DNA of 42,303 bases, taken from positions 1 through 42,303 of IMG/VR virus record IMGVR_UViG_3300021197_001376; one strand, 5' to 3'. Below the pieces are notes generated by a model. The model was given only the letters and a program-made list of their open reading frames with translations, did not search any database and was not told where the DNA came from. Below, piece by piece: positions 11,796 through 26,292 of the stretch. Made by a program: the position numbers and the translations under genes. Origin of the DNA: a virus. How positions within the stretch are numbered: position 1 is the first letter of the stretch; each line of letters begins with the position of its first letter.

Positions 11796-12365
11796 CTATA
11801 TTAATAAACTAGCATGTCTTAATAAACCAGTTTTTATTCTTTCGTCAGATTGTTGTTTTGATAGAGTAATAAGATGGGAATGTCTTTCTCTATTGTAGAC
11901 TATTTGAGCTTCTTCTAATGTATAAAACGAACCTAACCATTTGTCTAAATGTCTGGCTATGTATTTATTTCTTCTTTTAATTATACCTCTAGGCAACTTA
12001 CTTTTTGGGCCTCCATGCACTAGTAGAGCATTCAAATCATTAGAAATAAACAAACAAGTATCTGGTCCATATATTTTGTTATTAGGGAAAAGTAAATCTT
12101 TATCCAAATGTTTATCTTCCCAGTGTTGAGTTTCCATCCATTTCTTAAAATTCATAAAACTATGCCAATGTTCATATACATCTACATCTTTGTATGATGG
12201 TTTATCAATGTGGTATTTAGGATTATATGCTCTATTTATCATTTGGAACCATCTTCTATAAAACGGGCAGCATGTTTTCACACCATCAATAACCGGCTTA
12301 ACCACGTAGTCGGCATCATTTATATAAATTCCAAATATAGGTTTTCTAGTTTTTCTTATTGCCAT
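11796..12365 (-). CDS. HNH-type homing endonuclease-like protein (T7 gp5.3-like)
   Basis: This encodes 189 residues resembling the phage family typified by T7 gp5.3/7.7. Conserved patches are CPFYRRWFQMINRAY (33-47), PSYKDVDVYEHW (56-67), HLDKDLLFPNNKIYGPDTC (86-104) and FISNDLNALL. These proteins are usually free-standing homing nucleases that move between phages. It overlaps the VRR-NUC stop by 10 bases and has an AAGGA site 9 bases before the ATG. It interrupts the common VRR-NUC to helicase gene pair, consistent with insertion. Activity is unproven. Confidence 0.75.
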   Translation of the reverse strand: MAIRKTRKPIFGIYINDADYVVKPVIDGVKTCCPFYRRWFQMINRAYNPKYHIDKPSYKDVDVYEHWHSFMNFKKWMETQHWEDKHLDKDLLFPNNKIYGPDTCLFISNDLNALLVHGGPKSKLPRGIIKRRNKYIARHLDKWLGSFYTLEEAQIVYNRERHSHLITLSKQQSDERIKTGLLRHASLLI

Positions 12366-15821: not shown

Positions 15822-16364
15822 TTATTCCTCTTCGTAACCTGGGCCAATTAAAGTGATGTTACCCTTGTTTGCATACCATTTGATATACTCAGCAGCATAT
15901 GCAGAGGTCATCTCTTTACGATTTGTGTTTTTAGGAGCATTTTTTACCATGAAATCAATCACATCTTCAACTTCATAAATTCTGTTCTCATCACGAGCTT
16001 CTGCAATAAGAGCAAGTATTGTACCTTTACGGATTTTAGTACCGACGTTAATTTGCACTTCAAAATTCTTATTTAAACCATGGATTTTGGTATCATCTTT
16101 AACTTTGGTTTTCTTAGCAGGAGATTTCTTGGCAACACCTAATTTTTCAGCTCGTTCTTTAGCTTCAGTAAGTGCAGTAACTGCTAATTGGTAATCGGCT
16201 TGGATTGCTGAAGTTCTACGAACAGCTGATTTCTTATCAGCGAACTTTTTGATTTGGTTAACACCAACTAATTCAGCAGCAAATTTATTATAAATAGTTG
16301 CAAGTTCAGTGTTTTTGAAGTTTGATAATTCTTCTTGGTTAAAAATCTGTAATGAAGTATTCAT
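15822..16364 (-). CDS. Hypothetical early protein, basic linker plus C-terminal domain
   Basis: This encodes 180 residues, function unknown. The N-terminal ~90 residues are helical, followed by a basic linker (KKSPAKKTKVKDD) that could contact DNA, then a ~75-residue domain starting IRKGTILALIAEARDENR that matches the pattern in the downstream neighbour. The size and charge suggest a small winged-helix-like or DNA-associated domain, which is inference. It follows a GTGTAC-type promoter (16412-16441) and an AGGAAA ribosome site. Confidence 0.7.
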   Translation of the reverse strand: MNTSLQIFNQEELSNFKNTELATIYNKFAAELVGVNQIKKFADKKSAVRRTSAIQADYQLAVTALTEAKERAEKLGVAKKSPAKKTKVKDDTKIHGLNKNFEVQINVGTKIRKGTILALIAEARDENRIYEVEDVIDFMVKNAPKNTNRKEMTSAYAAEYIKWYANKGNITLIGPGYEEE

Positions 16365-16373
16365 AATAATTTC

Positions 16374-16442
16374 CTGTTTAATTGTTTAACTGCGTAACTC
16401 GATATGGTTCTATTCTAGAGTGTACCAAACAGCAAGTACACT
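16374..16442 (-). promoter_or_regulatory. Early leftward promoter with GTGTAC element and leader
   Basis: Read leftward: GTGTAC at 16441-16436, 18-base spacer, TAGAAT at 16417-16412, then the TATCGAGTTAC and TTAAACA leader, then AGGAAA and the ATG at 16364. A second AGTGTAC at 16419-16425 forms a 7-bp inverted repeat with 16436-16442, a plausible operator. The same layout recurs at 20373-20402, 19365-19395 and 26264-26292. Confidence 0.6.
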
Positions 16443-17309: not shown

Positions 17310-17319
17310 AACTTTTTTC

Positions 17320-17338
17320 CTGTTTTACTGTTTAAGTT
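17320..17338 (-). promoter_or_regulatory. Early leader / ribosome-site repeat
   Basis: Leftward sequence AAACAGTAAAACAGGAAA lies just upstream of the DUF2815 start. Nearly the same block precedes the starts at 19317 and 16364, and related TTAAACAG units precede 20295, 24548 and 26340. It contains the AGGAAA ribosome site and appears to be a shared early-gene leader. Confidence 0.55.
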
Positions 17339-17362: not shown

Positions 17363-18637
17363 TTATTCTTCGTCTTCCATCCCATTAAAATCACCAGTAA
17401 TCGAAGGTTCAACAGCCTTACGTTTATCGGATAGTGGAGCTACAACTAACTTACCTTCAGGTTTGATAGTTATATCATCCATTATTGCTTTGGCATCTTT
17501 AACACCAACTTTCTTTTTAAGACGCTTTTCAATCTCAGTCATTGAGCGAGGTTTTTCAACATACATATCGTCATGTTCTAAATAGTCAACCAATGGAGAG
17601 AAATCTTCATCAAGAGCTTCTTCAGTAAACTTACGATTGGTTTTACTTCGTACCAATTTGAAATGGTCTTTATAATCAGTAGAACCAGCATCAACATCAA
17701 CCTTGATACTATTCTCAACTGCTACTAAGAACGATCGTATCATAGGAATGTGTTCAGCAACACTAATTTTTTGCTCAATTGTCATATTAACAGGGTCAGG
17801 GAATTGTTCACCTTCAAATTCAACCATTGCCTGTTCTTGTACCATTTGATATTGAGCACCGCATGGAGCACATGGACAGAACTTACAACCTTCTTCTGAT
17901 GGAACAATTGGAGCATCATCTTCAAGAGTTAATTTAGCAGCTGGAATAAGTTCATCTTCTTCCCAATTGTAAACAAAATCTTTATCAACTTCCCACCAAC
18001 GGATTGGACCAAGTTTATGGAATGCTCTTGGCTGAGATATGGTGATACGAATACCGCCTGGAATACCTTCACCATTAAATCGAGGATTCATAATAACACC
18101 AAGTGTATAATTCAATGCTTGAGTATTATCTTCAGCTTCTACTACAACACCAGCTCCATGTTTATAATCCAGAACTTCAATTGAATGTAAGTATTCTTTA
18201 CCTTCATCATTAATAGCCCAGAATAGTAATACAACATCTGATGTACCACCATCAAGACCTGGGATTCCAATGTAACTTAGTGAAGCTTTAACTTCAACTA
18301 GGATTTCAACTCTCATGTCTTCAAGAGCAGCTTCTTCAATTCGGTCTCTAATATAATCAAGAGATTCCTGAACAGCTTCAGCCATATTCTTGTTGACAAC
18401 AAACTCAAAACCGTCAGCTTTAAATTTCTTACCAAGGTAATCATTGGCATCTAAGTTTTTCACCAAACATAATTCATGGACTTCGTGAGCAACTGTACCT
18501 TCAGCTGCGAACTTAGATGTAGAATTCTCTATACCTAATTTCTCTTGAAGTTTAATTGACCCAGGGCACTTCATCCATCTCTTAGAAGCCGAAGGCGACA
18601 ATTTAGAATGTGATTTAGCTTCTATTTCTTCAGACAT
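17363..18637 (-). CDS. DUF2800 protein, RecB/Cas4-like nuclease
   Basis: This encodes a 424-residue protein of the DUF2800 family, related to PD-(D/E)xK nucleases. Expected elements are the N-terminal LSPSASKRWMKCPGS, EGTVAHEVHEL, the catalytic-type region DGGTSDVVLL followed about 20 residues later by VLDYKHGAGV, and a Cys cluster EGCKFCPCAPCGAQ that may bind a metal or an iron-sulphur cluster as in Cas4/AddB. It probably processes DNA ends in replication or recombination with the adjacent ssDNA-binding protein. The ATG at 18637 has GGGAGAA 7 bases upstream; a longer frame to 18670 lies inside the HNH gene. Confidence 0.87.
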   Translation of the reverse strand: MSEEIEAKSHSKLSPSASKRWMKCPGSIKLQEKLGIENSTSKFAAEGTVAHEVHELCLVKNLDANDYLGKKFKADGFEFVVNKNMAEAVQESLDYIRDRIEEAALEDMRVEILVEVKASLSYIGIPGLDGGTSDVVLLFWAINDEGKEYLHSIEVLDYKHGAGVVVEAEDNTQALNYTLGVIMNPRFNGEGIPGGIRITISQPRAFHKLGPIRWWEVDKDFVYNWEEDELIPAAKLTLEDDAPIVPSEEGCKFCPCAPCGAQYQMVQEQAMVEFEGEQFPDPVNMTIEQKISVAEHIPMIRSFLVAVENSIKVDVDAGSTDYKDHFKLVRSKTNRKFTEEALDEDFSPLVDYLEHDDMYVEKPRSMTEIEKRLKKKVGVKDAKAIMDDITIKPEGKLVVAPLSDKRKAVEPSITGDFNGMEDEE

Positions 18638-19133
18638 TATTCTTTCTCCCGTGATTTTTATGGAAACCATATTTAATCTCTGCTTCTTTTCTAACAGAGA
18701 TTGCTTTATCTAAATCATCAAATCTACCTAGGCTTTTTATTTTTCCATTGATGCCTATGTTAACTCGCCAATTTAATCTATCATTACACCAAGTAACTCC
18801 TCTATATCCTGAGGAACTTGTTTTACCTACTGATGAATTCTTTACATTCTCAGATTGAGGAACATCTCTTAAATTTGATATTCTGTTATTACTTCTATCG
18901 CCATCGATGTGGTCAATTTGGTATTTAGGCCACTTACCATAATGATAGAACCAAGCTAATTGATGAGCATAATATTCAGTTCCATCTAAACCAATTCTAG
19001 TATAACCTTTCCAACCACTGCCTGCATTAGAATTAACTTTTATTCTTGGACTAGTTGGATTAATCCACGTGAATATTCCTGTATCACTATCATATGATAG
19101 AACATGTTTTAATCTAAGTGAAGTTACTCTCAT
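18630..19133 (-). CDS. HNH endonuclease with AP2-type DNA-binding domain
   Basis: This encodes 167 residues. The HNH_3 motif is IDHIDGDRSNNRISNLR (residues 73-89), with Asp74-His75, preceded by YYAHQLAWFYHYGKWP, and followed by an AP2-like DNA-binding domain from SGYRGVTW (109) to about 150. This is the classic arrangement of free-standing phage homing endonucleases. It overlaps the DUF2800 start by 8 bases and follows the 60-residue gene by one base with a poor ribosome site, consistent with insertion into an existing operon. Confidence 0.92.
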   Translation of the reverse strand: MRVTSLRLKHVLSYDSDTGIFTWINPTSPRIKVNSNAGSGWKGYTRIGLDGTEYYAHQLAWFYHYGKWPKYQIDHIDGDRSNNRISNLRDVPQSENVKNSSVGKTSSSGYRGVTWCNDRLNWRVNIGINGKIKSLGRFDDLDKAISVRKEAEIKYGFHKNHGRKNNV

Positions 19134-19317: not shown

Positions 19318-19351
19318 AACTGTTTTCCTGTTTTACTGTTTAAGGGTTATT

Positions 19352-19395
19352 TACATCTCTAAAGATTCTAATACAGAACACTTAGAGATGTACAC
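19352..19395 (-). promoter_or_regulatory. Early leftward promoter flanked by an 11-bp inverted repeat
   Basis: Leftward GTGTAC (19395-19390), 19-base spacer and TAGAAT (19370-19365). An 11-bp perfect inverted repeat (19352-19362 with 19382-19392) brackets the -10 box and overlaps the GTGTAC element, so it could be an operator or a cruciform/hairpin site. Confidence 0.55.
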
Positions 19396-20097: not shown

Positions 20098-20295
20098 TTA
20101 AGATTGTTGATTTACGCCAAAATGTTTTTCAATTTTGTCATTTGCAAGTTTATAGTAAATACCATTATCTGGATTTACTGGATTGTACTCTACTAATTCA
20201 TTTTCTTTATTATGGAGTGTTTCCTTAATGCAGTCCATACTAACTGGATTAACCATATAGTTTGGAAAATTAGTATTGTTTTGTAATATGTGCAT
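20098..20295 (-). CDS. Small first gene of the leftward arm
   Basis: This encodes 65 residues with no recognised family; it is hydrophilic, with Asn and Lys/Glu rich stretches and no membrane segment. The ATG at 20295 has AAGGA 7 bases upstream and is preferred to the ATG at 20316, which lies within the leader repeats and has no site. As the first gene after the divergent promoter it would be made early. That position often holds host-takeover or anti-defence proteins, but nothing in the sequence shows such a role. Confidence 0.65.
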   Translation of the reverse strand: MHILQNNTNFPNYMVNPVSMDCIKETLHNKENELVEYNPVNPDNGIYYKLANDKIEKHFGVNQQS

Positions 20296-20318
20296 AACAT
20301 ATTCCTTATTTAACATTT

Positions 20319-20402
20319 TACTGTTTAACTGTTTTACTGTTTAACTATGTATATTTGCTAGACAGTGAGGACATTCTATTCTAATATATTTATGAAGTAC
20401 AC
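20319..20402 (-). promoter_or_regulatory. Main early leftward promoter and repeated leader
   Basis: Leftward GTGTAC (20402-20397), 18-base spacer, TAGAAT (20378-20373; a second overlapping copy at 20383-20378). The leader then contains two tandem copies of GTTAAACAGTAAAA (within 20319-20345). It drives the leftward arm. Confidence 0.65.
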
Positions 20403-20476
20403 ACTATTTTGAAAAATATTTAAAATAATTTACTAAATATTAAATATTGTGTTTATTTTTGCCCTCTTTCTATATA
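20403..20476 (+). promoter_or_regulatory. Divergent control region and rightward promoter
   Basis: Bases 20403-20446 are almost entirely A/T with repeated AATATT-type words, a plausible operator between the two promoters. Rightward, TTGTGT (20447-20452) and TATATA (20471-20476), spaced 18, form a sigma70-like promoter for the regulator gene at 20517. Confidence 0.5.
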
Positions 20477-20516
20477 TAGTCTTCTACACTCATTAATAAT
20501 AGACATAGGATATACC

Positions 20517-21047
20517 ATGGACTCTAACGAGAACAAGAAAATCCCATTGTTCGGATATACTTATATAGTAAGTAACGACTTTGGGCTCATTAAGATAGGA
20601 AAATCAGCAGACCCTGAATCTAGAGTTAAGATGATTGAAGCTGCAAGTGGCGTTCCTACTAAACTTGAGTTTAAGATTAAAGGTGACTTTAGAGAATATA
20701 TTGCTCATGAGTTATTAAAAGAATTTAGAGTTACTGGCGAATGGTTCACTTGTTCTGTTGAACACGCAAAAAATGCTTTAGAATCTATTGAGATTCCTGA
20801 TTGCAATATGTTGATGTTCAATAAAGAACAATTGAAAACATACCATTCTGATGTATTGAATGAATTATTAGAAGATGTTGGTGGTAAGAAAAATTTATCT
20901 AAATTGATAAACAAATCTATTCCAACCATTAATAGTTGGATTTACCATGGGCGTATTAGTAAACAAGGTGCTAAGGACATTGAAAATAACTTGAGAATAA
21001 AAGAAAAGTTCTCAGCTGAATACCTACGTCCTGATTTAACTAAATAA
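20517..21047 (+). CDS. T5orf172 (GIY-YIG-like) domain fused to a YdaS/Cro-like HTH
   Basis: This encodes 176 residues. Residues ~12-92 look like a T5orf172/MUG113 domain, a GIY-YIG relative: GYTYIVSND, LIKIGKSADPESRVKM (Arg36), and AHELLKEFRVTGEWF (Glu65). Residues ~113-176 look like a YdaS/Cro-type helix-turn-helix: LLEDVGGKKNLSKLINKSIPTINSWIYHGRIS, ending EYLRPDL as YdaS proteins do. Its place at the divergent early promoter, first in the rightward arm, suggests a Cro-like regulator carrying a nuclease-like domain. Whether the nuclease domain is active is unknown. AGGATATACC precedes the start. Confidence 0.78.
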   Translation: MDSNENKKIPLFGYTYIVSNDFGLIKIGKSADPESRVKMIEAASGVPTKLEFKIKGDFREYIAHELLKEFRVTGEWFTCSVEHAKNALESIEIPDCNMLMFNKEQLKTYHSDVLNELLEDVGGKKNLSKLINKSIPTINSWIYHGRISKQGAKDIENNLRIKEKFSAEYLRPDLTK

Positions 21048-21060
21048 GGAATATAATGAT

Positions 21061-23682
21061 ATGTCAAATTATGACAAAAAAGAAATACGACCTTATTTAG
21101 ATACTAATTCAGACTTAATACCTATTCATGTTTGGAATAAGCAGATTAAAGGTAAGGTACGTGGCAAAACTCCTGTACACAATGACTGGACAACTCGTAA
21201 ATATAATATCAATAATGATACTATAAAGAGTTGGATAGATAAAGGTTATAACTTGGGTTATAGAATTCCAGCCAATGAACTCATTGTTGATATGGACCCA
21301 CGTAACTATGAGGGTGTTGACTGTGAGGAATTAATAGCGGAATTATTTGGTTATTTCGATTGGGAAGAGTTAATTGAAGAATTGCCTACAGTTAAGACTG
21401 GCGGTGGTGGTTATCATGTTTATTGCACTTTACCTGATGGTATAGATTATCGTCTTTTAAAAGAAACATTGGAGGAATATCCAGGTGTTGAATTCAAACG
21501 AAAAGGTAGACAAGTCCTCTGTGCAGGCTCAAAGCATCCGTCAGGAGGTTATTACAGATGGACAAATGTTGAAGAAAAATCCATTTTACCTGAATCAGTT
21601 ATTAAAACCATTAGTAGAGGAGCCAATAAGAAAGGAGACTACTCATCAGGAGAAGCTTCGTTAACTGGTACTCAATTACAGGAAATGATTCTTGATAAAC
21701 TCGATATTGAGAATTATGGTACTAATGATAAATGGTTCCCTCTATTATGCGCAGCTCATCATGCGACAGGCGGAACAGGTATAGAAGAGTTTGTAGAGTG
21801 GTCAATAGAGGCACTTGGATTTGAAGATGATGAAAACCTCATCAAACAGCGTTGGGAGTCTCTATATGATGGTAAGGAGACGTTATATACTGTTGGTACT
21901 CTTATCCATGAACTCGAGCAAAAAGGTGAAGATACATCTGGAGTTAAAGCAGTTCTCACATTCGCTAATCAACCTGAATTAGATATTGAAGATGATGATT
22001 CAGAAGAAGCTGAAATGGTTAATGGAGCTAACGAAATTGCTGCTGACATTGACATCGATGATATGTATCACACACCAGCTGGTGAAGCGGGAGTTGAAGG
22101 TGCCGCTCTTATAGCATGTAAAGATTTATCACCTGTATCATCTCAAGAAGATGTAATGAAAGCTCTTCGTCTTATTAAAGCGGCTGACAATTTCGAGGCT
22201 ATGAAAGCCAAAGACCTCATTGTTGAAAACAAGGTACTTAAGAAAAGTTCATTGAATGAAATACTAAAACAGTTAGAAGCTAAAATATCTGATGATTTAG
22301 CTCTTATGCTCAGTCAAAAGACATTAGAGAAAACCTTTAATAAAGGAAAACATTTAATGGGAGCCCCCAATGGCCAATTGTATACATTTAGTAAAACTCA
22401 TTGGAAACCATTGACTGATGAGTTTTTAAGTAAATTAATTCAGAATGTACTGTGGAAGATTAAAGAGAAAGTTAATATAGAGATGCAAGAGCTTTCACTA
22501 ATAACCCAAGCCCTTAAACTTAGCCGCATCCAAGTTGCTACTCTTACAGATAAGTTACACTCTACTGAATTGCCCAAATCTGTTGTTAATTGTCAAAATG
22601 GTGAATTATGGTTGATGAGAGATGGTACCCATGCTCTTCGTCCTCATTCATATAAGAGTTATTTATCGAGCTGCCTTAAAGTTAATTATGACCCATCAGC
22701 AGAATGCCCTCTATTCATGCAGACTATTAATGAGATTTTCGAAGACTTCATTGATGGTGAAGATATGGTGCGCCATATTGGTGAACTCATGGGGTATATG
22801 ATTCAACCTTATAAAAATATCGCGTCATGGTGGTTATTCCGTGGTCCTGGTGGTGATGGTAAATCAACCCTCGTTAAAGTACTTGAAGCTATATTGCACG
22901 ACGCACAAGTCTCATCTACTGTTAAATTGCTTAGCGCTGCCTCATCAAATGGTGATAACCATGGTATGACAAGTCTTGTTGGCGCACTTTCAGTCATCAT
23001 TGAGGAATTACCCGCTAATTACCTACTTAAGGATGAAGGCGTTAAGATGTTATCGGAAAATACCAAAATGGAATGTAATCCAAAAGGTAAGGATAAGTTC
23101 AACTTCATGTATGGCGGCAATTTAATCATGTGTAGTAATGGTTTTCCTGCCACACGAGATTTATCACATGGTATGATACGAAGAGCTAATGTTATCCCAT
23201 TCAATAAACAATTTACCAAAGAAGATGTGCAAGGTAATAATAAAGCAGATATTGATAGACTCGATAATATTATTCGTAATCCCAAAGAAATGGCTGGAAT
23301 ACTTAACTTCATGCTTGAAGGTTTACAAAGGTTACGCAATAGAGGAAGATTTCTCATTCCAGAATCTTGTGCTGAAGCGAAAGAAGAATGGATGGGGCAA
23401 GCCAATAATGTGGCCAGATTCTTAAAAGATAATGTTGAAAAGACTCCTGGGATTGTAGATTGTTTGGGTGATTTTAATTCTCTTTATAACATTATTTATT
23501 TCACGTGGTGTGAACAGAATGGAATAGATGAAAAAATGAGAAAGAAAAAACAACATTTTAAATCTGATTTATCTGACTTAGGGTTCACTGTAAAACCTGG
23601 GGGAGGGAATGTGATGAAGGTATATGGGGGGAATTTGTTGTCATCAGCAGAAGATTTGATTGATGGAATAGAGGATTTTTAG
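21061..23682 (+). CDS. Primase-helicase (prim-pol + SF3 helicase)
   Basis: This encodes an 873-residue replication initiator/primase. The N-terminus is a prim-pol (archaeo-eukaryotic primase) domain: IVDMDPRNY near residue 75 gives two metal-binding Asp, and GGGGYHVYC near 113-121 is the conserved Gly-His segment. A PriCT-like linker follows (around 205-270: WFPLLCAAHHATGG), then an acidic linker and a D5-N-like region. The C-terminal third is an SF3 helicase with Walker A GPGGDGKSTLVK at about 594-605 and downstream IIEELPAN and NLIMCSNGFP motifs. It is the only primase and presumed fork helicase here. Confidence 0.92.
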   Translation: MSNYDKKEIRPYLDTNSDLIPIHVWNKQIKGKVRGKTPVHNDWTTRKYNINNDTIKSWIDKGYNLGYRIPANELIVDMDPRNYEGVDCEELIAELFGYFDWEELIEELPTVKTGGGGYHVYCTLPDGIDYRLLKETLEEYPGVEFKRKGRQVLCAGSKHPSGGYYRWTNVEEKSILPESVIKTISRGANKKGDYSSGEASLTGTQLQEMILDKLDIENYGTNDKWFPLLCAAHHATGGTGIEEFVEWSIEALGFEDDENLIKQRWESLYDGKETLYTVGTLIHELEQKGEDTSGVKAVLTFANQPELDIEDDDSEEAEMVNGANEIAADIDIDDMYHTPAGEAGVEGAALIACKDLSPVSSQEDVMKALRLIKAADNFEAMKAKDLIVENKVLKKSSLNEILKQLEAKISDDLALMLSQKTLEKTFNKGKHLMGAPNGQLYTFSKTHWKPLTDEFLSKLIQNVLWKIKEKVNIEMQELSLITQALKLSRIQVATLTDKLHSTELPKSVVNCQNGELWLMRDGTHALRPHSYKSYLSSCLKVNYDPSAECPLFMQTINEIFEDFIDGEDMVRHIGELMGYMIQPYKNIASWWLFRGPGGDGKSTLVKVLEAILHDAQVSSTVKLLSAASSNGDNHGMTSLVGALSVIIEELPANYLLKDEGVKMLSENTKMECNPKGKDKFNFMYGGNLIMCSNGFPATRDLSHGMIRRANVIPFNKQFTKEDVQGNNKADIDRLDNIIRNPKEMAGILNFMLEGLQRLRNRGRFLIPESCAEAKEEWMGQANNVARFLKDNVEKTPGIVDCLGDFNSLYNIIYFTWCEQNGIDEKMRKKKQHFKSDLSDLGFTVKPGGGNVMKVYGGNLLSSAEDLIDGIEDF

Positions 23683-26263: not shown

Positions 26264-26292
26264 GTGTACATCACCATAGAACTGATTATAAT
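26264..26292 (+). promoter_or_regulatory. Rightward GTGTAC-type promoter
   Basis: GTGTAC (26264-26269), a 17-base spacer and TATAAT (26287-26292), followed by TATCGAGTTAC and a TTAAACAGCTAAACAG leader, as at 16374-16442 on the other strand. It drives the small gene at 26340. Confidence 0.65.

Follow-up and report, generated by a model that had tools for sequence, protein, structure and literature searches.

The window analyzed here, 42,303 nucleotides of viral DNA (IMG/VR record IMGVR_UViG_3300021197_001376), contains at positions 20517-21047 of the plus strand an intact, continuous open reading frame (ORF) of 176 residues in which a GIY-YIG nuclease domain of the T5orf172 family is followed by a Cro-type helix-turn-helix (HTH) protein. 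The gene opens a rightward operon, and the genes on its left are oriented leftward. The protein may serve both as the Cro-type regulator of the early switch and as an active nuclease, and to this combined reading we assign a probability of roughly 45%. Both Cro regulators and GIY-YIG nucleases are textbook proteins; a single protein at the early switch that is both, if true, would tie gene control directly to DNA cutting.

Domain organization and conserved residues

From the DNA sequence alone, the initial annotation had described an N-terminal T5orf172-type domain with Arg36 and Glu65 in the expected places. The domain is recognized by two Pfam families, PF10544 (T5orf172; 33.4 bits versus a cut-off of 20) and PF13455 (MUG113; 34.7 bits versus a cut-off of 22.3). 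Its residues were compared in alignment A5, consisting of the window protein and 41 of 51 other T5orf172 ORFs (two near-duplicates and eight long proteins were left out), and in alignment A12, consisting of 24 T5orf172 domains. Tyr16, Lys26, Gly28, Arg36, and Glu60 are invariant in the 42 domains of A5, with His64, Glu75, and Phe77 conserved in at least 90%, and Lys26, Gly28, Arg36, Glu60, His64, Gly74, Glu75, and Phe77 are invariant in A12. Arg36 had been placed correctly, whereas residue 65 is variable; the conserved acidic position is Glu60, and Glu65 is thus excluded as the catalytic residue. Both Glu60 and His64 lie in the motif E-x3-H...R-x2-GEWF. A profile search of the PDB with A12 gave three weak matches (E values of 0.17-0.74) to three GIY-YIG proteins, namely UPF0213 protein BH0048, endonuclease II, and I-TevI. 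The match to I-TevI pairs the conserved arginine with an I-TevI arginine, and no significant alignment to the catalytic glutamate of I-TevI was obtained in this search. The role of Glu60 was assigned on the basis of its invariance and of Odn (Gp88) from the Vibrio phage ICP1, a T5orf172 nuclease that is directed to its target by a RepA_N domain, keeps the catalytic arginine and glutamate, and is inactivated by the E180A substitution (PMC8263062). With Tyr16, Lys26-Gly28, Arg36, Glu60, and His64 all kept, there is no sign in the sequence of the dead nuclease fold that had been offered as an alternative. The odds that the nuclease half is active are put at about even.

The C-terminal region had been described as an HTH ending in EYLRPDL like that of YdaS. 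The HTH and its ending stand, but the family does not. The Pfam YdaS score (PF15943) is 19.4 versus a cut-off of 30, which excludes membership, and "Cro-like" is therefore the better name. Residues 103-174 match PHROG 2856, a "transcriptional regulator", with an E value of 3.2e-8. A tblastn search with the last 67 residues returned 38 phage records, several of them annotated as Cro or transcriptional regulator, with the best E value (2e-4) to Cro-like genes. In addition, the profile of alignment A8 recovers the Xfaso 1 Cro protein (3bd1) by hmmsearch.

An AlphaFold2 model calculated from the single sequence was uninformative, with a predicted local distance difference test score (pLDDT) of 34. 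A second model was calculated with alignment A10, the 16 rows of which comprise the window protein, six T5orf172 relatives, and nine Cro relatives, and its mean pLDDT is 87.7. The HTH is made up of the helices delineated by residues 103-121, 124-130, 135-144, and 149-158, and strands and helices follow one another in a GIY-YIG-like order from residues 14 to 89. The structure prediction that had been suggested as a check thus returns an HTH at the C terminus. Indeed, the top row of a structural comparison with the PDB is Xfaso 1 Cro, with a Z-score of 9.7 and a root-mean-square deviation (rmsd) of 1.8 for 64 residues; this protein has the fold of the window C terminus but lacks a nuclease domain. 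Lower in the list are operator-bound N15 Cro, P22 Cro, and YdaS (8co2; Z-score of 5.6, profile E value of 1.6e-3). The N-terminal fold is less tested because most rows of the list span residues 102-176. Residues 5-97 match the Slx1 nuclease (6sei) with a Z-score of 6.5 and an rmsd of 4.2 for 89 residues. Foldseek gave nothing at an E value of 0.001 or better against the PDB and 122 matches at or below 0.001 against viral models; the named ones among the matches listed are mostly GIY-YIG, T5orf172, or Bro proteins.

The T5orf172 domain ends near residue 91 and the HTH begins near residue 100, leaving a linker of ∼8 residues. In A8, Met100 is aligned to the start methionines of the stand-alone Cro proteins L112 and L114. 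An AGGA-type ribosome site precedes the ATG of the fusion gene, and none is clear ahead of Met98 or Met100. As judged from these features, a T5orf172 frame was joined, almost without a linker, to a whole cro gene. The GC content of the gene and that of its third codon positions (GC3) fall within the general range of the neighboring genes, with the Cro half lower in GC (0.29 versus 0.35). The fusion protein has no zinc-finger match in Pfam and no RepA_N match in Pfam or PHROG.

Gene order at Cro and T5orf172 loci

The next gene, which encodes an 873-residue primase-helicase, begins 13 nucleotides downstream of the fusion gene. A scan of viral contigs with the Cro half identified 19 loci, and all 19 proteins are stand-alone, ∼80 residues in length, and without a T5orf172 domain. 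In 12 of the 14 loci whose gene order was inspected, a large rightward ORF of at least 430 residues directly follows the Cro gene. The genes ahead of Cro diverge in 10 of those 12, and the other two, L107 and L113, have little upstream DNA; the exceptions to this order are L098 (Sf11-like) and L111. Ten of the 12 large genes were scanned, and all encode primase/helicases (eight Prim-Pol, one D5_N/DUF5906, and one DUF3987). The 80-residue stand-alone Cro of Alteromonas phage PB15 is divergent from leftward genes and lies directly ahead of a TOPRIM gene; like the window gene, it opens the rightward operon. Phage MatMar (Drexlerviridae) has a Cro-like gene directly ahead of a primase, and in Sf11 (Cedarrivervirus) the gene after Cro encodes an ASCH domain on the opposite strand. 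The Cro proteins of the lytic phages PB15 and Sf11 have a homologous HTH ending in (D/E)LRP and diverge from the leftward operon, but at ∼80 residues they carry no nuclease domain. The window gene lies in the same place as the stand-alone Cro genes and is therefore regarded as the customary Cro extended by a nuclease domain. The original assignment of a Cro-type regulator to the early switch is well supported by this position ahead of a primase and opposite divergent genes, and Cro-type DNA binding at the switch is very probable.

No second copy of the fusion gene is present within the 42,303-base record, no near DNA match to the window was found among annotated phages, and scans with the whole protein gave no relatives. 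Likewise, no relatives of the primase or the DNA polymerase were found in viral contigs. The tail sheath of the window phage is 42% identical to its best match, MW202455, and in this nearest sheath relative no T5orf172-Cro gene is annotated at the divergent junction.

A nuclease-like domain on a Cro-type regulator had been called unusual, and a search for the domain pair in other phages had been recommended. A Pfam-recognized HTH (E value of 0.01) occurs in four of the 42 T5orf172 proteins surveyed, namely the window protein, L012, L025, and BS5 gp44, the last with the order of the HTH and T5orf172 domains reversed; L138 shows a weak HTH_3 match (E value of 0.029). In L025 (a viral contig) and L012 (a Deinococcus plasmid), the T5orf172 domain is followed by an XRE-type HTH, and both genes share four nucleotides with the end of an HTH/Cro gene upstream. 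Unlike the window protein, these fusions have an HTH of the HTH_3/HTH_31 type that is extra to a separate, retained Cro gene. In both L118 and L025 the T5orf172 gene starts within the stop codon of a Cro/YdaS-like gene, again with a four-nucleotide overlap, and this Cro/YdaS-like gene diverges from a gene for a repressor with an HTH and an S24 peptidase. L015 has the same gene order with a middle ORF that has no Pfam match, and in Rhizobium phage RHph_I1_23 four nucleotides are shared between an annotated "cro-like repressor" and the T5orf172 gene (EVC14_053). In L185 (3936-5011, minus strand), the T5orf172 gene has on one side a gene that resembles lambda CII by eye and on the other replication-type genes, and an HTH repressor is encoded opposite it. 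The fusion is thus unusual but not unique, since T5orf172-HTH fusions and Cro-coupled T5orf172 genes exist elsewhere.

The upstream neighbors of 41 T5orf172 loci were considered, four of which had no fitting ORF, and 25 proteins were submitted to Pfam (24 neighbors and the RHph_I1_23 Cro). At an E value of 0.01, three of the 25 matched YdaS and two matched P22_Cro. A binomial test for association with switches, relative to random placement, gave P values of ∼0.004-0.07 for three of 25 to 47 loci. Given that the test was post hoc, that independence among the loci is incomplete, and that RHph_I1_23 was found through the L118 search, this is suggestive only. T5orf172 genes also lie away from switches in CBW1004C-Prop1 and in RHph_I3_18 (EVC14_027 and EVC14_052). 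Mx8 p19, for its part, functions in replication initiation and is not a switch case. By eye, the T5orf172 proteins of L133 (2810-3438) and L028 (3956-4498) have ribbon-helix-helix-like C-termini with no Pfam match, and in L133 a small ribbon-helix-helix-like gene overlaps the T5orf172 gene by four nucleotides.

Proposed mechanism and alternatives

In the mechanism proposed here, a GIY-YIG nuclease has been joined in frame to the N terminus of the Cro-type early/replication regulator of the phage. The Cro half (residues ∼100-176) would bind an operator within positions 20317-20516 and would repress or balance the early promoters of both directions, a role presumably shared by the stand-alone Cro of related phages. 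The nuclease half, which would be a working or recently working enzyme, would be kept near the operator by the very short linker, and nearby DNA would be cut. The phage's own operator would have no cleavable site at the proper spacing and would be bound and left uncut, as with I-TevI, whereas Cro-type operators of a rival phage, or of an allele without the nuclease, would be cut.

I-TevI, the intron endonuclease of phage T4, is described as both a nuclease and an autorepressor at an operator that it barely cuts (PMC2988022). It shares with the window protein a GIY-YIG domain and a separate HTH DNA-binding part, but it is intron-encoded and its linker, which contains a zinc finger, is 75 residues long, in contrast to the ∼8 residues and complete Cro observed here. 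Odn likewise combines a T5orf172 domain and the conserved arginine and glutamate with a borrowed replication/control DNA-binding domain (PMC8263062). In Odn, however, this is an N-terminal RepA_N domain directed to satellite origins, whereas in the window protein it is a C-terminal Cro encoded at the phage's own switch. If true, the present reading would carry the principle of these two cases, hitherto seen with introns and satellite origins, over to a core phage switch. A literature search (titles and abstract openings, with subscription papers mostly outside its reach) gave no description of a T5orf172-Cro fusion or coupling. Iyer and colleagues reportedly described in 2002 that T5orf172 is shuffled with the domains of viral regulators.

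Several observations weigh against a protein that both regulates and cuts. The T5orf172-Cro fusion is known from a single metagenomic record. The Z-score for the Slx1 match lies below 8 and, according to the comparison tool, may reflect just a common arrangement. With ∼8 linker residues versus the 75 of I-TevI, steric constraints may prevent any cleavage close to a bound operator, or such cleavage may be a hazard to the phage's own DNA. Finally, no operator for the Cro half has been identified with confidence; the tandem octamers of the control region (Table 1) may be leader or ribosome-site elements, because the copy at 17315-17336 has no promoter composite.

Less probable than the dual role is a primarily homing function, in which a free-standing endonuclease acquired the resident cro gene as its DNA-binding half by fusion. 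It would chiefly cut the same control region in co-infecting relatives with a plain cro and convert them, and regulation would be just the inherited function of the Cro half. T5orf172 proteins are described as homing nucleases of phages whose DNA-binding domains can be exchanged, the partners being mostly zinc fingers (200 of 229; PMC10448857). Two other genes of the window phage (18630-19133 and 11796-12365) are likely of the HNH homing type, and the lack of a T5orf172 domain in all 19 Cro relatives fits an insertion-type gain. The distant relatives carry plain Cro. The searches turned up no close relative, and hence no empty site by which presence/absence could be compared within one lineage. 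Both the stand-alone Cro start at Met100 and the operon position are preserved, which suggests that a regulatory role has been retained.

A non-cutting T5orf172 domain, serving as a DNA- or protein-contact or dimerization module that tunes the Cro repressor, is about as improbable as a homing role. The domain does sit almost directly on the HTH, and Pfam-recognized T5orf172-HTH proteins recur, as expected of a domain that serves regulators. A pure scaffold, however, would be free to lose the invariant GIY-YIG positions, all of which, including Arg36 and Glu60, are kept. An assembly or sequencing error joining T5orf172 and cro genes, or a recent non-functional read-through, would accord with the occurrence of the fusion in one record only but is very improbable given the continuous frame, the one good ribosome site at codon 1, the ordinary base composition apart from the lower GC of the Cro half, and the meeting of the two halves at the natural Cro start.

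The recurring coupling of T5orf172 genes to Cro in other phages suggests a testable general idea, namely that nucleases are guided against competitors by the regulators of switches. In the broadest form of this idea, which is speculative and rather unlikely, phage switches repeatedly employ T5orf172 nucleases as effectors, encoded in overlap with the end of Cro or fused to it, and these would use Cro-type binding to cut the operators of rivals or of the phage's own repressed copies, as a weapon or homing device. Compact operator-directed nucleases might find use as reagents.

Control region and other features

The leftward genes diverge from the rightward operon, and positions 20317-20516 were accordingly taken to be the divergent control region. 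The features located are listed in Table 1.

Table 1. Features of the fusion gene, its surroundings, and similar loci in other genomes
Feature	Position	Strand	Basis
Coding sequence, T5orf172 (GIY-YIG)-Cro fusion, 176 residues	20517..21047	+	ORF list, Pfam, ribosome site
T5orf172/MUG113 GIY-YIG domain, residues 13-91	20553..20789	+	Pfam above cut-off; model pLDDT ∼90-97 over most; Slx1 match
Arg36 codon, conserved GIY-YIG arginine	20622..20624	+	Invariant, 42/42 (A5) and 24/24 (A12)
Glu60 codon, conserved GIY-YIG glutamate	20694..20696	+	Invariant, 42/42 (A5) and 24/24 (A12)
Cro-type HTH domain, residues 100-176	20814..21044	+	Met100 aligned to stand-alone Cro start; 3bd1 Z-score 9.7, 64 residues; 3bd1 hmmsearch E value 2.4e-10
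Prim-Pol/D5 primase-helicase, second operon gene	21061..23682	+	ORF list, Pfam, PHROG
Divergent control region, leftward versus rightward early genes	20317..20516	.	Gene orientation
Candidate leftward early promoter, TGTAC...TAGAAT composite	20373..20401	-	Enriched composite
TACACA-17-TAAAAT, weak candidate for a rightward promoter; includes part of the GTGTAC/GTACAC site	20398..20426	+	Promoter-like matches there not above chance
CAGTWAAA, four octamers in tandem ahead of leftward gene; operator or leader element possible	20316..20347	-	Octamer hits, eight versus 0.5 expected
Repressor (-), Cro (+), then T5orf172 with four-nucleotide overlap	L118:1951-3477; L025:685-2225; L188:2364-3543		Gene order; no detected relation to window phage

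GTGTAC, which the initial annotation had named as a site for binding tests, occurs 18 times in the window versus 11.6 expected. Eight of 100 shuffled sequences reach 18; the site is not enriched, and its count gives no support for a specific operator. The copy at 20397-20402 belongs to a promoter-like composite (TGTAC, 10-22 nucleotides, then TAGAAT or TATAAT), seven of which are present in the window versus 1.42 expected (0 of 100 random sequences). Four of the seven lie shortly upstream of genes, at 16412-16440 (-), 19365-19394 (-), 20373-20401 (-), and 26265-26292 (+), and three are elsewhere. AGAA often comes after the composite.

The two HNH-type genes are both on the minus strand and resemble free-standing homing endonucleases, that at 18630-19133 by HNH_3 with a weak AP2 match and that at 11796-12365 by PHROG 953. 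The sole PADLOC family matched by the fusion protein was the candidate PDC-S57 (two models, E values of 5e-6 and 4e-4); the match covers the T5orf172 part only.

The CAGTWAAA octamers, with a period of eight on the minus strand, are found at 16377-16398, 17315-17336, 19323-19344, and 20316-20347, where they precede the leftward genes at 16364, 17309, 19317, and 20316 (eight hits versus 0.5 expected). A search with this leader box matched one contig, the ORFs of which are seemingly unrelated. Some of the arrays run into a ribosome site (CAGGAAA), and the octamers may be a leader element of early genes. Note that translation of the first leftward ORF (20098-20316, minus strand) probably begins near 20295, at its second ATG, where an AAGGA ribosome site is present; with this start, the octamers would be part of its leader.
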